IMG/VR virus record: IMGVR_UViG_3300020201_000050
Coordinates: 1-39,917 of that record
DNA from: a virus
DNA: 39,917 bases
Direction: 5' to 3' (one strand)
Shown: positions 3,169-39,888 of the stretch, piece by piece
Layout: each line of letters starts with the position of its first letter
Numbering within the stretch: position 1 is the stretch's first letter
Notes under the pieces: generated by a model
Seen by the model: only the letters and a program-made list of their open reading frames with translations
What the model was told of the DNA's origin: nothing
Database searches by the model: none
Made by a program: the position numbers and the translations under genes

Positions 3169-3388
3169 CGATAACCAGCGCCAGCATTCCGTTTACCACC
3201 GCTAACACGACCCCTGCCCCGACAGTCAGCAGACCCCCGATAAACAAAAACCCGACGAAAGACAACACGCCTTCGCCGGGTTCACCGATGCCCGTCCATC
3301 CTGTTTCACTCGGTAATGGTTTCCATGTCGGCCTAGTCACCGGATATTGGTCTTGGTGGCGGACTGATTGACGTGGGGTAGACGGCAT
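3164..3388 (-). CDS. Small membrane protein, 74 aa (possible holin-like)
   Basis: Residues about 40-74 form one long or two short hydrophobic segments (SFVGFLFIGGLLTVGAGVVL then LAVVNGMLALVIG) after a polar, proline-rich N-terminus. It is the last gene of the minus-strand operon. The ATG start gives a 56-base overlap with the upstream gene and has no clear ribosome binding site; a GTG at 3340, close to the upstream stop, is an alternative. A membrane role next to the other putative membrane genes suggests part of the lysis cassette, which is inference. Confidence 0.5.
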   Translation of the reverse strand: MPSTPRQSVRHQDQYPVTRPTWKPLPSETGWTGIGEPGEGVLSFVGFLFIGGLLTVGAGVVLAVVNGMLALVIG

Positions 3389-4235: not shown

Positions 4236-4997
4236 TCAACCTCCAAGTAATTTAATAAGAGCAGAAATCAAACCACCGCTGACAAGACCGCCGACAGTAG
4301 CCGTCTTGGCATTGGATAAAGTCCACCTCAACGGACGAACCAAAAATTGCACCACACGGTCACGTTCCGTTTTAAGAATATTGACATCCGTTTGGATGGT
4401 GGTAAGTTGGCTATGAACGGTACTTACTTGAGTACCAACATTTGCTACAGTGCGATCCAGCCCCGCGAACATCATCTTGAGCGTGACGAACCCGGGTGTT
4501 GCTTCCATGTCGGTTGACCCAAAGATGAAATCCGTCATCTTTCGGTTGCGCGCATTCATATCATCCATGAACAGGTTGATGTCGCGTGTTTCAGCTTCGA
4601 CATTATCCAGCCGCTCACCGTAGGTTCTCACTTGGTCATCGCGGCTGTTGATGACTTTCTCGAAAGAGCGCATCTGCAAGCCAAGCGATTCGTTCCCGGC
4701 TCTGATCGTTTCTTGCAAAGCCTTTTCCAAGTTGCGGATGTCATCGGCGGCAGCTTGTTTGTGAGTCTTGAAGCGTGTCTCAATCGCATTGTCGGTGGCT
4801 TTACGTTCATCCAACCGAACCGTCTCCAGCGCTTCGTCCATCTCAGCGCGAGTCGGTACATTCGCAAGACGCTCGTCAATAGCCACAAGCTGCTGCTGGT
4901 TGTGCGTTGCTATTTCCTCACGGATGATACGCCTGAAATCCCCTTCACTCATTTGCGGTGGGGTGGGTGGCGCATCAGTAATCGGGTCAAGCGTCAT
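4236..4997 (-). CDS. Coiled-coil protein with C-terminal membrane helix, 253 aa (XhlA-like layout)
   Basis: Residues about 15-215 are highly helical with heptad character. The last 25 residues (TVGGLVSGGLISALIKLLGG) form a glycine-rich hydrophobic helix. Coiled coil plus C-terminal anchor is the layout of XhlA-type hemolysin or holin partners, although this protein is far longer than XhlA. The ATG at 4997 lies at the edge of the 365-bp transposon remnant; no Shine-Dalgarno remains upstream, so the insertion has probably separated the gene from its native ribosome binding site and put the element between it and the promoter at 5404-5431. Confidence 0.55.
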   Translation of the reverse strand: MTLDPITDAPPTPPQMSEGDFRRIIREEIATHNQQQLVAIDERLANVPTRAEMDEALETVRLDERKATDNAIETRFKTHKQAAADDIRNLEKALQETIRAGNESLGLQMRSFEKVINSRDDQVRTYGERLDNVEAETRDINLFMDDMNARNRKMTDFIFGSTDMEATPGFVTLKMMFAGLDRTVANVGTQVSTVHSQLTTIQTDVNILKTERDRVVQFLVRPLRWTLSNAKTATVGGLVSGGLISALIKLLGG

Positions 4998-5000
4998 CAA

Positions 5001-5365
5001 AATTGGCGCGAGATACCCCTAGCTTTAGCTATGGGGAGGTAAGCACCTTAATCCTTTCAATTCTGTCGGACAAGTATCCCCGAAGGGAAAGGGAGATTTA
5101 AGTTACCTATGGCTCTCCCTCAAAGCCTGCTCCGCTTGCGCGGGGTGAAGTCTTCCTCGACAATGTTATGCGGTGGTTTTATGTACACGACACTGGTTTA
5201 GACCCTCAACCTGTTTAATCGTGTACCGCAGCGTTCAGGGCTGGAACGTCACCCTGAAGTGCCTATCTATATTCACCGCTAACGTAGTTCCCCGAAGGGA
5301 ACTGAGTCTGGTCAGCACGGCTTGTATTGCTACAAGCCCCTAGCTTTAGCTATGGGGTCGCTGAC
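5001..5365 (-). mobile_element. Non-autonomous IscB-family (IS200/IS605-type) element, iscB deleted
   Basis: Both ends carry the same subterminal hairpin, CCCCTAGCTTTAGCTATGGGG-like, at 5017-5036 and 5338-5357. The flank before the left end is GTCATCAA, identical to the flank of the iscB element at 37661. Bases 5150-5365 match 39023-39238 at 210 of 216 positions without gaps. Between lies about 115 bases whose minus strand still reads a remnant of an iscB C-terminus (ELKGLRCLPPHS then stop; compare YMKGELALPPHA in the intact gene). This is therefore an internal deletion derivative that lost the nuclease but kept both ends and the omega RNA. No tnpA is present. Confidence 0.85.
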
Positions 5366-5381
5366 AAGAAACACCGTTGTC
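5140..5381 (-). ncRNA. Orphan omega RNA (IscB guide RNA scaffold without iscB)
   Basis: In IscB systems the omega RNA lies upstream of iscB, with a guide of about 16 nt taken from the DNA flanking the element and then a scaffold. The scaffold here is 97% identical to the one next to the intact iscB. Its outer stem GTCAGC/GCTGAC (5365-5360 with 5316-5311) encloses two hairpins. A TTCG-loop hairpin (AGTTCCC/GGGAACT), a TTCAGGG/CCCTGAA stem and a GTACACGA/TCGTGTAC stem follow. The six differences fall in loops or linkers or keep pairing. The guide would end in ACAACGGTGTTTCTT (flank 5366-5381). A promoter lies just upstream. Activity would need IscB in trans, and one is encoded at 37686-38984. 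Confidence 0.75.
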
Positions 5382-5403: not shown

Positions 5404-5431
5404 AGTGTAGCACAAAAAAGAAAGATGTAAA
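5404..5431 (-). promoter_or_regulatory. Sigma-70-like promoter reading into the orphan omega RNA
   Basis: On the minus strand TTTACA (5431-5426), a 16-base spacer and TACACT (5409-5404) with an extended TG at -14. The motif TTGTGCTACACTAT recurs exactly in the capsid promoter near 21856. Transcription would start around 5397, about 30 bases before the element boundary, so the transcript would begin with a short leader, then guide and scaffold. Before the insertion it presumably drove the four-gene cassette 3164-4997. Confidence 0.65.
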
Positions 5432-22008: not shown

Positions 22009-23004
22009 TCATGCGACTTCCTTATCCTTTGCTTTTACCAATTCAAAGTATGCGTTGATGCGCTTCAAGATTACTCGCGCCTTCCGTTTGCCAAATTTCA
22101 GGGCAAGCCACACTTCTGGCATAGCGTTATGCTTGGAATTATTGCATCCGTCCTCACCGTGACATAGAGGCACGATGTTATCCGCTGTCGTCCCGCCGCC
22201 TTTGGTGAGTGGTATCCAGTGATCGGCGGAAGCGGTGTGCGTGACGAATAAATCCTTTAACGGTCTATCGCATACCGCGCAGTAGCCATGAAAGTAATCA
22301 ATGGCATATTGCCATTCGGCGGTGGTCAAGGTGTTGGGGAGGTTAGCTTTACGGGCGCGGCGGCGCTGGCTGTGAACCCGCACCTTTTCCGGGTTAGCAA
22401 CCTGCCAGACGCGGTTTTTCTCTCTCAACTTTTCTGGATTAGCAGCGTAGTAAACGCGGCCTTTCTCGTTCAACTTTTCTGAGTTAGCAGCGTAGTAAAC
22501 GCGGCTTTTCTCGTTCACCTTTTCTGAGTTAGCAACGTAGTAAACGCGATTGTACTCTCTCACCTTTTCTGAGTTAGCAGCGTAGTAAACGCGTTTTCTC
22601 TCTCTCCCCTTTTCCGGGTTAGCAGCGTAGTAAACGCGGCCTTTCTCGTTCAACTTTTCTGAGTTAGCAGCCCGGTAAACGCGGTCTGCCTCTCTCACCT
22701 TTTCTAGATTAGCAGCCCGGTAAACGCGGTCTGCCTCTCTCACCTTTTCTAGATTAGCAGCCCGGTAAACGCGGTCTGCCTCTCTCACCTTTTCTAGATT
22801 AGCAGCCCGGTAAACGCGATTGTACTCTCTCATCTTTTCTGGATTAGCAGCCTTGTAAACGCGGGCGTACTCTCTCGCGCACTCTTTACACTGGTAAAGT
22901 AATCCATCTTTTTTCGTGCTGTCCCGCGAAAACGCGCTCACCGCCTTCGTTTCCTTGCATTTCGCACACCGCTTGCTACCAACAATTATCTCGTCTGCGC
23001 TCAT
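22009..23004 (-). CDS. HNH endonuclease with zinc finger and eleven 15-aa repeats, 331 aa
   Basis: Starts at ATG 23004, six bases after CAGGTAA. Residues 13-42 form a C-x2-C...C-x2-C finger. Residues 49-213 are eleven tandem repeats of consensus VYxAANxEKxxExxR, predicted helical and highly charged. Residues 240-293 are the HNH core: CAVC (242-245), SADHW with D261-H262, and LCHGEDGCNNSKH. Phage HNH proteins near terminase genes often assist DNA cleavage at packaging, and this one lies in the head gene cluster. The repeat block is unusual; three consecutive units are identical at DNA level, a sign of recent expansion. Confidence 0.85.
   Translation of the reverse strand: MSADEIIVGSKRCAKCKETKAVSAFSRDSTKKDGLLYQCKECAREYARVYKAANPEKMREYNRVYRAANLEKVREADRVYRAANLEKVREADRVYRAANLEKVREADRVYRAANSEKLNEKGRVYYAANPEKGRERKRVYYAANSEKVREYNRVYYVANSEKVNEKSRVYYAANSEKLNEKGRVYYAANPEKLREKNRVWQVANPEKVRVHSQRRRARKANLPNTLTTAEWQYAIDYFHGYCAVCDRPLKDLFVTHTASADHWIPLTKGGGTTADNIVPLCHGEDGCNNSKHNAMPEVWLALKFGKRKARVILKRINAYFELVKAKDKEVA
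22366..22860 (-). repeat. Coding 45-bp tandem repeat, eleven units
   Basis: Each unit encodes 15 residues of the HNH protein. The units at 22681-22815 (three copies) are identical in DNA; the others differ at several positions but keep VY-AAN-EK. The unit length of exactly 15 codons means that gain or loss of copies leaves the frame intact, so the length of the rod between finger and nuclease can vary freely. Confidence 0.9.
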
Positions 23005-29987: not shown

Positions 29988-30030
29988 AGTATTGAGTAAC
30001 CCCCCACTTTTTGGGTGCTGTCAATGTGGG

Positions 30031-30051
30031 ACAACATTGTATAATATAGAT
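30031..30051 (+). promoter_or_regulatory. Promoter with operator-like palindrome, copy 1
   Basis: TATAAT at 30040-30045 directly preceded by ACAACATTGT, a near-perfect palindrome. The block CATTGTATAATATAGATAC recurs as GTTGTATAATATAGATGT at 30283 and, inverted, near 31162-31177. No good -35 is visible, so an activator or a repressor that binds the palindrome is likely. Confidence 0.5.
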
Positions 30052-31142: not shown

Positions 31143-31172
31143 TTGACTTGTTAAAGAACTTAGATATATTAT
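31143..31172 (+). promoter_or_regulatory. Promoter for the HTH gene
   Basis: TTGACT (31143-31148), 18 bases, TATTAT (31167-31172), or TATATT with 16 bases. It overlaps the inverted copy of the block seen at 30031 and 30277, suggesting the same regulator acts here. Confidence 0.6.
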
Positions 31173-31206
31173 ACAATGATACACCTTATAAACAGCACCC
31201 AATAAT

Positions 31207-31215
31207 GGGGGGGGG
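31207..31215 (+). repeat. G9 homopolymer in the ribosome-binding region
   Basis: Nine consecutive G from 31207, five bases before ATG 31221. It takes the place of the Shine-Dalgarno. Such tracts slip during replication, so the spacing and strength of initiation could vary between phage copies. Confidence 0.6.
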
Positions 31216-37300: not shown

Positions 37301-37657
37301 CTATTTAATCGTTGGCGCGGTAAGGTCTCTCGCCCACACAAGCCACAAGTCATCACATTCCTTGACCCATTCAGATACACCAGCCTCAGCACGTTCTGCG
37401 ACAATCCATATCAACAGCCCACACGGGTAACGCACATCGCTATCCGGGTCGGTGGACGGTTCGCTCATCCGGCGGTCATACAGATCAAGCGCGGATTCGA
37501 CGGTTGCGATGTCCAGTACCGAATGAATCACAATCTCGATCTCGCATTCGCACAATGCGTCCCATGCGGCGATGTTCCCATCGTCGTTGATTTCAACGCC
37601 ATACAAACGGAACTCGAGCCACTGCTCGATATAAGCTAACATATTATCGCGGGTCAT
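37301..37657 (-). CDS. Hypothetical acidic protein, 118 aa
   Basis: Start ATG 37657 lies three bases outside the end of the iscB element. AAGGA, five bases upstream, is inside the element, so the insertion now supplies the ribosome binding site. The protein is acidic with several tryptophans and cysteines (AAWDALCECEIEIVIHSV, CGLLIWIVAERAEA). No family recognised. Without the element its start would overlap the stop of the 39223-39888 gene (reconstructed TGATG), so the two were once one operon. Confidence 0.6.
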   Translation of the reverse strand: MTRDNMLAYIEQWLEFRLYGVEINDDGNIAAWDALCECEIEIVIHSVLDIATVESALDLYDRRMSEPSTDPDSDVRYPCGLLIWIVAERAEAGVSEWVKECDDLWLVWARDLTAPTIK

Positions 37658-37660
37658 CAA

Positions 37661-39238
37661 ATTCCTTGCGCGGATACCCCTGCCTTTAGGCATGGGGAGG
37701 AAGCGCAAGTTCTCCTTTCATATAGGTGTAGCCGTCCGATTGGTGAAGCGGGGTGCAGTATTTGTAGCCAATACCCTGCACCGTGCCTGTGCGGGTGGTG
37801 ATATTAAAGCTGCCTGAGCTTCGTACCGCCACTCGCCCGATATACGCGCCAGCTTTCGTACCAGTGGTGACGACGGCCTTTACCATGTCGCCCGTCTGGA
37901 AACCTTTCACCACGCGACTTTGTTTCGCGCCTGTACGTGGAAACCCGTACTTATCCGGGCGGCACATCTGGCGCGATTGCCTGCCTGTGGCCTTGATGAG
38001 CAGTGGCGTGTGATTAGCCGAAACAAAGACACGCGCCCCGCTTTCGCCTACACAAGTCGCATCGAGCCAATGCGCTTTAGGATAGGATTGCTTAATGCGA
38101 TTGAACTTCGTGCGCCCACCCGTGCCGACTTCCAGCGGGATACCCGCCTGAGCAAACACGCCGTGCAACTTCCGACGTGAGGCATTGACCGCCGCCGCGT
38201 CTTTCAGAGGCTTTTTGGCTTTGCGCTGAATGTCGGGAAACCCAAACTCAGCCGCCGTTTGATTGCCTTTTTTGTCGTTACAGTCGTGACAAGCGATAGT
38301 GAGGTTGCTCACACGGTTTGACCCGCCCCGCGATTTTGGGTTGATATGCTCCACTTCAAACCGCACGTTTTCTACCCCACAGTAAGCGCATTTGCGCTTC
38401 CATTTTTCCAGCAAGTATTCGCGGACTTCATAGCCCATCAACTCGCCTTGCTGGTATTCTACGCCGCTGATTTCAGGGTTTTGCATGGCCTGCATATCGA
38501 ATTTGACCAGTTCCAGACTGACGGATGCCAGCGGCGAAAAGCGACCTAACTTGTTTGCCCATGTCACGATGTTATCTACGCGGCTCATGAGCGACGGCGG
38601 CAGCCAACCCTCAGCACGGCGGCGGTTATCAAACCGTGCCGGACGATAGCGGGTGTGACGCGCTCGGCGACCCCGCCGCAATGAGCGCCGTGATTCCAGC
38701 GCGGCTTTGATCTGCTGCCCACGATGGGCTAACTCTGCTGCCCAGATCAAGCGTTTACCCCGTTTGAAGTCTGCGACTAACGCTATGCCTGTCGTTTTGC
38801 TGCCGGGATCAACTTTGAAGGCAATAGGCTGCACATCGCCGCCGTCCCGTTCTTTCAGGATGATCGTAAAAGGATATTGGCGATACACTGCCGCTTTCCC
38901 TTTGTCCAGTAGCTCCCGCGCCCGTGCCGGATGGCAAGGCATAAGGGGCTGTTTGTTGCGGTCTAGTACAAATACACGTTGCATGAAAGTTACCTTTCGT
39001 TTCTCGGATTGCTCCGGGTAATGTCTTCCTCGACAATGTTATGCGGTGGTTTTATGTACACGACACTGGTTTAGACCCTCAGCCTGTTTAATCGTGTACC
39101 GCAGCGTTCAGGGCTGGAACGTCACCCTGAAGTGCCTATCTATATTCACCACTAACGGAGTTCCCCTAAAGGAACTGAGTCTGGTCAGCATGGCTTGTAT
39201 TGCTACAAGCCCCTAGCTTTAGCTATGGGGTCGCTGAC
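37661..39238 (-). mobile_element. IscB-encoding IS200/IS605-type element
   Basis: About 1578 bp with subterminal hairpins at 37677-37696 (CCCCTGCCTTTAGGCATGGGG-like) and 39210-39230. Flank GTCATCAA before the left end equals the flank of the 5001-5365 element. It carries iscB and its omega RNA but no TnpA transposase, so it moved or moves by transposase in trans. Joining the flanks restores a TGATG overlap of two phage genes (see findings), which fixes the ends to within a few bases. Confidence 0.85.
37686..38984 (-). CDS. iscB: IscB RNA-guided nuclease, 432 aa
   Basis: IscB is the transposon-encoded ancestor of Cas9; it cuts DNA matching the omega RNA guide next to a TAM. Seen here: the PLMP motif at the N-terminus (KQPLMPCHPARARELL, residues 11-26), RuvC-I VDPGSKTTG (D59), an arginine-rich bridge helix (99-123), RuvC-II SLELVKFD (E158), HNH with EVEHINPKSRGG (H213) and zinc cysteines C199, C202, C232, C235, and RuvC-III HWLDATC (H305, D308). 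All catalytic residues are present, so it should be active. The stop codon lies inside the right-end hairpin of the element. AAAGGTAAC precedes the start. Confidence 0.93.
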   Translation of the reverse strand: MQRVFVLDRNKQPLMPCHPARARELLDKGKAAVYRQYPFTIILKERDGGDVQPIAFKVDPGSKTTGIALVADFKRGKRLIWAAELAHRGQQIKAALESRRSLRRGRRARHTRYRPARFDNRRRAEGWLPPSLMSRVDNIVTWANKLGRFSPLASVSLELVKFDMQAMQNPEISGVEYQQGELMGYEVREYLLEKWKRKCAYCGVENVRFEVEHINPKSRGGSNRVSNLTIACHDCNDKKGNQTAAEFGFPDIQRKAKKPLKDAAAVNASRRKLHGVFAQAGIPLEVGTGGRTKFNRIKQSYPKAHWLDATCVGESGARVFVSANHTPLLIKATGRQSRQMCRPDKYGFPRTGAKQSRVVKGFQTGDMVKAVVTTGTKAGAYIGRVAVRSSGSFNITTRTGTVQGIGYKYCTPLHQSDGYTYMKGELALPPHA

Positions 39239-39254
39239 TTGAGCAACCTCACCC
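39000..39254 (-). ncRNA. Omega RNA of the intact iscB
   Basis: Lies directly upstream of iscB on the same strand, as in known IscB loci. The scaffold (39238 towards 39023) has an outer stem GTCAGC/GCTGAC (39238-39233 with 39189-39184) enclosing two hairpins, then AGTTCC/GGAACT, TTCAGGG/CCCTGAA and GTACACGA/TCGTGTAC stems. The guide would come from the flank and end GGGTGAGGTTGCTCAA, which is part of the interrupted gene 39223-39888. 210 of 216 bases match the orphan copy at 5150-5365. Confidence 0.8.
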
Positions 39255-39888
39255 TCACGATAACCTGCACCTCAACATCACCCGCGAATGGGATGGGCAG
39301 CCGATCAATCAGCGATGCAGGCAGCCGATAGGTTGCCCACATCTCCGACATGCTCTCGGCGATGTATTGCTTCTGGCGTTTGATCGCCTCGATCTCGCCA
39401 ACTGTTATAGCAGTAATCACCGGATTGCTTTCGCCTGAACCTGTATCTACATGGCCTGTGTTCATCGCTTCTTCGATGACCTCAGCCGTACGTTGAATCA
39501 ACGGGGCGGTGATCGGCTGGTTATTGGTACTCGCATACGCAGCCGCCGCTTTCACCACCACCACCTGTACATCAGGCCGCAGCGTCTTAACCTGACGCGC
39601 AACAGCTTCGCTCGGAAGCGTTACACCTGTAACGGAATGAATGTACTTGGTCGTCGTTGCCCCGTTAATCCGCTGGCTGGCGCGGGATGAAGAGAAGCCC
39701 CACACGCTTTTGCAGTAGGTATCAAAGTCGGGCGCGACATCACGGTAGAGTCGCTTGTCACGGATGGCTTGAAGCTGCTCGGCGACCACTGTCCAAAAGA
39801 CCTCCTGCGCTTGGCGAATCATGCTCTCACGCAACGCAAGTTCTTGGCTTTCGATGGTTGTGAGTGACGCGGTTTCTAGCTCAATCAT
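39223..39888 (-). CDS. DNA-binding-like phage/plasmid protein, 221 aa, end altered by the iscB element
   Basis: The region FWTVVAEQLQAIRDKRLYRD, then FDTYCKSVWGFSSSRASQRI is typical of a family found in plasmids and phages (I-R-x-x-x-L-Y-R...F-x-x-Y-x-x-x-x-W-G-x-S-x-S-x-A) that is predicted to bind DNA through an HTH. The last residues (SATP and stop) come from the transposon end; the original end was probably RLLN. The frame stays open upstream to the window edge and no ribosome binding site precedes ATG 39888, so the true start may lie outside. Confidence 0.65.
   Translation of the reverse strand: MIELETASLTTIESQELALRESMIRQAQEVFWTVVAEQLQAIRDKRLYRDVAPDFDTYCKSVWGFSSSRASQRINGATTTKYIHSVTGVTLPSEAVARQVKTLRPDVQVVVVKAAAAYASTNNQPITAPLIQRTAEVIEEAMNTGHVDTGSGESNPVITAITVGEIEAIKRQKQYIAESMSEMWATYRLPASLIDRLPIPFAGDVEVQVIVRVRLLKSATP

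Follow-up and report, generated by a model that had tools for sequence, protein, structure and literature searches.

The virus record IMGVR_UViG_3300020201_000050, which is the entire stretch of DNA analysed here (39,917 bp; the window), carries a 365-bp unit that is probably a non-autonomous mobile element with no coding content beyond an omega RNA, using an IscB nuclease and a TnpA transposase in trans to keep or regain its sites (Table 1). Four aspects of this reading are supported by the sequence comparisons described below, namely the mobility of the unit, the absence of iscB and transposase genes, the conservation of its structure and the matching of its scaffold to those of iscB elements.

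Table 1. Position and basis of the features discussed, in coordinates of the window.
Feature	Position	Strand	Basis or remark
Mobile omega RNA element without nuclease or transposase	5001-5365 (365 bp)	-	~98% identical copies elsewhere, in unrelated flanks
Omega RNA scaffold (HEARO, RF02033)	5145-5365	-	cmscan, 149.1 bits, E 1.7e-31, full length
Putative guide GACAACGGTGTTTCTT, from the flank	5366-5381	-	flank varies with each insertion
Conserved 3' RNA domain of iscB-less elements (model R1)	5085-5159	-	covariation; 78.3 bits
8-bp covarying stem, 5' arm	5114-5121	-	covariation analysis
8-bp covarying stem, 3' arm	5089-5096	-	covariation analysis
Left-end palindrome CCCCTAGCTTTAGCTATGGGG, within the omega RNA	5337-5357	.	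direct reading
Right-end palindrome, identical to the left-end one (CCCCTAGCTTTAGCTATGGGG)	5016-5036	.	direct reading
TTGATGA flank, putative target/TAM, includes ATG of downstream gene	4994-5000	-	common to six full insertions
Downstream gene	4236-4997	-	start codon within the TTGATGA flank
Promoter-like TTTACA-N16-TACACT, extended -10	5404-5431	-	consensus match only
Full iscB element, same kind of ends, TTGATGA flank at 37654-37660	37661-39238	-	
IscB, 432 aa, RRXRR and HNH, candidate trans-acting nuclease	37689-38984 (also given as 37686-38984)	-	Pfam PF14239, 245 bits; IscB relatives in PDB
Omega RNA of the full iscB element	39018-39238	-	RF02033 match, 145 bits (Rfam)

The orphan omega RNA and its iscB-linked counterpart

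According to BLAST and the alignment of viral copies, the element has sharp termini and reads GTCAGCGACC...CAATTT on the omega RNA strand. It holds no protein-coding frame, and neither iscB nor a transposase gene lies inside it. An iscB reading frame was sought in 5001-5144 and none was found; the omega RNA is therefore not directly followed by iscB or isrB, as it is in a complete IscB transposon. The right end is common to iscB elements.

The orphan RNA is a HEARO by its full-length match to the covariance model RF02033 (model positions 1-211), with a score above the gathering cut-off of 83 bits. The omega RNA beside iscB gave the second match, and the Rfam scan detected no third HEARO in the 39,917-bp record. 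A sequence-only reading of this DNA had reported that the two RNAs agree at 210 of 216 positions without gaps, and realignment confirmed the figure (six differences in the first 216 positions). The differing bases mostly occupy unpaired columns or form G-U wobbles, and the TTCG tetraloop noted in that reading is real. Standard consensus pairs are formed at 60 of 65 positions in the orphan and at 59 of 65 in the iscB-linked copy. The iscB gene itself, the only one located in the window (37686-38984), is intact as judged by its domain content. At 39223-39888, and at 16128 of contig L120, the element splits an overlap of stop and start codons, and its first bases give the upstream protein a short tail ending in ...SATP*; the element thus supplies its own stop codon in the frame of that protein.

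The promoter noted in the earlier reading is present at 5431-5404 on the minus strand. It lies in an AT-rich stretch in which eight promoter-like sites were found compared with 1.6 expected, so that the match is weak evidence, and its role may be no more than to drive the downstream gene.

Copies in other viral contigs

Exact matches to the omega RNA's initial 29 nt were found in four other viral contigs (G001-G004). In three of them the sequence shared with the window at this place is the 365-bp unit (97.8-98.7% identity), with unrelated flanks as determined by BLAST and alignment, while G003 represents the phage of the window itself (99% identity) and carries the element in an unchanged position. 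Near-identical elements occupy four different sites in viral contigs, three of them beyond that of the window. G001 has two copies, the second of which is ended by the contig edge and is found at a site that is occupied in G002 too. TTGATGA, within which the following gene has its start codon, was present on the 3' side of all six full insertions read, and the guides, being derived from the flank, differed between insertion sites. Discrete ends, multiple insertions in unrelated flanks, CCCCTAGCTTTAGCTATGGGG at both ends and a TTGATGA fixed beside the six insertions are the characters of a non-autonomous IS200/IS605 element. The terminal palindromes are likely to be the recognition sites of a transposase.

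Of the five viral records, just one was found to carry iscB, the other four being possibly fragments; in G001-G004 there was no second HEARO above the cut-off and no iscB. No Y1 transposase was detected in the five records (G000-G004). Numbers of Y1 transposases in other genomes were three in G006 (a Chloroflexota genome, see below), eight in G014 and zero in G015. The element was not found in annotated phages, and plasmids gave only partial matches of 69-72%.

Some further observations concern the phage sequences. When the window was compared with locus L116 of G003 (same site), the element (5001-5365) differed at 10 of 366 positions and the flanks at 25 of 3635 (Fisher p 8e-4), and several of the differing bases recur in element copies at other sites; conversion between copies or re-insertion are possible sources of these differences. 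Another region that differs between the window and G003 is 22336-22921, where an HNH-domain protein (22009-23004) contains a 45-bp (15-aa) direct repeat in nine copies. A 49-nt inverted repeat (30000-30048 and 31165-31213, 78% complementary, 1116 nt apart, TATAAT-like bases in each arm) surrounds a 185-aa ORF on the plus strand. Finally, 3234-3337 and L120 19383-19486 share 104 bp at 83% identity in phage contigs that are otherwise unrelated.

A conserved 3' RNA domain

The part of the element beyond the scaffold had been taken for a mere trace of an iscB C-terminus. What was found instead is a conserved 3' RNA domain together with the shared right end. The domain consists of roughly 45-75 nt outside the Rfam model and is built from a hairpin and, 3' of it, an 8-bp stem, which encloses a GUAA-capped helix. 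A GGC/GCC pseudoknot is possible from the sequence, and the change to GGU/ACC in one element of G005 (a second Chloroflexota MAG) is a single observation in its favour.

In an alignment of 16 sequences, 97.8% of the cells were paired and eight pairs showed compensatory changes; for 19 sequences, two of them from G005, the values were 94.7% and ten pairs. One pair takes AU, CG, GC and UA. Such values did not arise in any of 500 shuffles, and structures slid along the alignment paired at 32-50%. A covariance model of the domain (R1), built with the phage and G006 rows, scored 75-78 bits in the phage elements, whereas the iscB-bearing loci tested matched it over a shortened stretch and with no score above 23.5 bits. 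All 16 R1 loci of G006 are at iscB-less HEAROs, and so are the two of G005, whose rows are independent of the model.

The Rfam scan of the domain gave nothing above the gathering score, and the search of viral contigs with the core of the R1 pattern gave no match. Among 400 Chloroflexota genomes only three had matches, one of them weak; relatives of G006 and G005 yielded only these two genomes themselves, and 12 other genomes or records with iscB relatives yielded none. Since iscB elements of the same groups have a simpler GAAAG-GUAA-CUUUC hairpin directly 5' of the iscB start codon, the 3' domain probably grew from such an iscB leader hairpin.

Bacterial relatives and matching of scaffolds within genomes

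HEAROs were counted as iscB-less when no iscB was present within 400 nt. In G006 (Chloroflexi PMV_1.47, a Chloroflexota MAG), 16 of the 24 HEAROs over the cut-off were iscB-less. Ktedonobacter robiniae had 7 such HEAROs among 17, Dictyobacter 1 among 9 and a Deltaproteobacteria MAG none among 5. G005 has two diverged iscB-less relatives of the phage element. Fourteen of the 16 iscB-less G006 elements align co-linearly with the phage element over the whole 360-385 nt, and an ATGA or GTGA lies no more than a few bases downstream of each of these 14, often opening a reading frame. The short G006 elements have diverged to ~70-90% identity, yet they are full HEAROs scoring up to 135 bits. The iscB-less HEAROs L136-L140 of K. 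robiniae are of another kind; four of them co-align over ~410-455 nt and have no R1 domain.

The scaffolds of the short phage elements share 95.5-96.4% identity with the iscB-linked RNA of the phage itself, compared with at most ~76% with elements elsewhere. Similarly, the short scaffolds of G005 are 96-98% identical to two of the three iscB-linked RNAs of that genome, and S_L127/F_L164, a short scaffold and that of a co-resident iscB element, are 90% identical. In G006, some short elements resemble a particular iscB element most (90%, 89% and 85%), and others resemble other short elements more. The short scaffolds are thus not one group, despite their common 3' domain. On its well-supported branches the omega RNA tree requires six or more state changes, and a single clade of short elements was rejected, by a test that assumes no recombination and on a tree with two long end branches. 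Such matching is the outcome expected if the local IscB used the short RNAs in trans; gene conversion or repeated replacement of iscB could give the same result.

Guide targets and a possible mechanism

IscB uses a guide of 16 nt, which derives from the 5' flank. No exact copy of the phage guide followed by GATGA occurs in 2.9 million viral contigs. A local search allowing up to three mismatches found the exact guide only at its own locus in two near-identical phages, and among the matches listed no other had TTGA directly after it. Empty sites were sought by means of the neighbouring genes, which gave only the same phages or nothing. At the occupied site the element displaces the motif from the guide, as a local check of the sequence showed.

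For the element to function as proposed, we infer a transposase, expression, loading into IscB and cutting of empty sites. A transposase supplied in trans would act on the terminal palindromes and move the element. By insertion just 5' of TTGATGA, or RTGA, at the start of a gene, 16 nt of flank would become the guide, and the IscB of the same phage or host would load the orphan omega RNA. Copies of the site lacking the element, in which the guide is directly followed by a TTGA-type motif, would be cut, and recombination or repair from the occupied copy would keep, restore or spread the element; the occupied site would be spared because its motif is displaced. The iscB-less elements would then constitute a lineage in which a structured 3' domain of their own replaces the iscB gene. 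With regard to the phage, trans-use by its IscB had been suggested earlier. The part of that suggestion concerning an orphan RNA with a nearly identical scaffold stands, and because this scaffold so resembles the omega RNA of the same phage's IscB, the most parsimonious function is maintenance or homing by use in trans; the use itself is predicted from sequence.

A wider interpretation, which we put forward tentatively, is that these units are a guide-only selfish class, RNA-only parasites of the transposase and the RNA-guided nuclease of their relatives, whose scaffold selection or conversion would keep in step with the local IscB and whose conserved 3' domain, standing in place of the nuclease gene, would have a dedicated function.

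It is rather unlikely that the unit is a plain MITE-like passenger, needing only a transposase in trans and retaining its omega RNA for the structure of the left end or because it is young. The phage copies are indeed young (~98% identical), their terminal palindromes are identical and G006 has Y1 transposases, but the short G006 elements remain full HEAROs after considerable divergence, and the 3' RNA domain is still covarying. The position of insertions immediately before start codons in phages and G006 might point to a cis-acting leader, the omega RNA regulating the downstream gene with or without bound IscB; this is improbable, as the downstream genes are different and unrelated, and a target motif containing ATG or GTG explains the placement. 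Even less credit is given to the earlier suggestion of a domesticated weapon, in which the guide would direct IscB against a rival phage or against the host. It could draw on the promoter-like site upstream, but the guide is merely flank, other copies have other guides from their own flanks, and the search of viral contigs gave no exact match of guide plus GATGA. A single iscB transposon in decay, with an omega RNA surviving by chance (the "remnant" of the sequence-only reading), would fit the iscB-like right end and the lack of an ORF. It is hardly credible, given that near-identical copies occupy several sites, in more than one phage, and that structured relatives in bacteria share the 3' domain.

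Relation to known systems

With the IscB/HEARO OMEGA elements (IS200/IS605 superfamily; RF02033, RRXRR/HNH) the element has in common the scaffold, the guide from the 5' flank, palindromic ends and a 3' motif of TTGA type, but it has no iscB and instead an additional covarying 3' domain. Non-autonomous IS200/IS605 derivatives (PATE- or MITE-like) are likewise short, without ORFs, bounded by palindromes and presumably mobilised in trans, whereas the 365-bp element carries a complete and conserved guide RNA. ORF-less HEARO elements, and insertion beside ATGA or GTGA, were reportedly described by Weinberg et al. in 2009, and Meers et al. are said to have discussed ORF-less IS605 derivatives in 2023.

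Judged by the literature consulted, three things appear to be new: the discrete mobile phage unit, its conserved 3' domain and the agreement between scaffolds of one genome; an earlier description of the 3' domain is possible. Standalone omega RNAs able to work with IscB were reported by Altae-Tran et al. (2021), as cited in PMC9581776. These are similar in that the omega RNA is remote from iscB and use in trans is reported for them; going by that citing description, the present elements are set apart as discrete mobile 365-bp phage units with a common 3' domain. The omega RNA of IsrB has stem-loops SL7 and SL8 on the 3' side of the nexus, and SL8 is dispensable for the activity of DtIsrB (PMC9581776). 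By analogy, the 3' domain may be an enlarged counterpart of SL7/SL8, differing in its 8-bp outer stem, its GUAA-capped inner helix, a possible GGC/GCC pseudoknot and its occurrence in iscB-less elements.

The proposed reading would make it testable whether an element can survive by encoding only the guide for another element's RNA-guided nuclease. The phage offers a matched pair for this, an IscB and an orphan omega RNA (scaffolds 96% identical), along with several natural guides. The RNA domain outside the Rfam model may matter for the stability or loading of omega RNAs.
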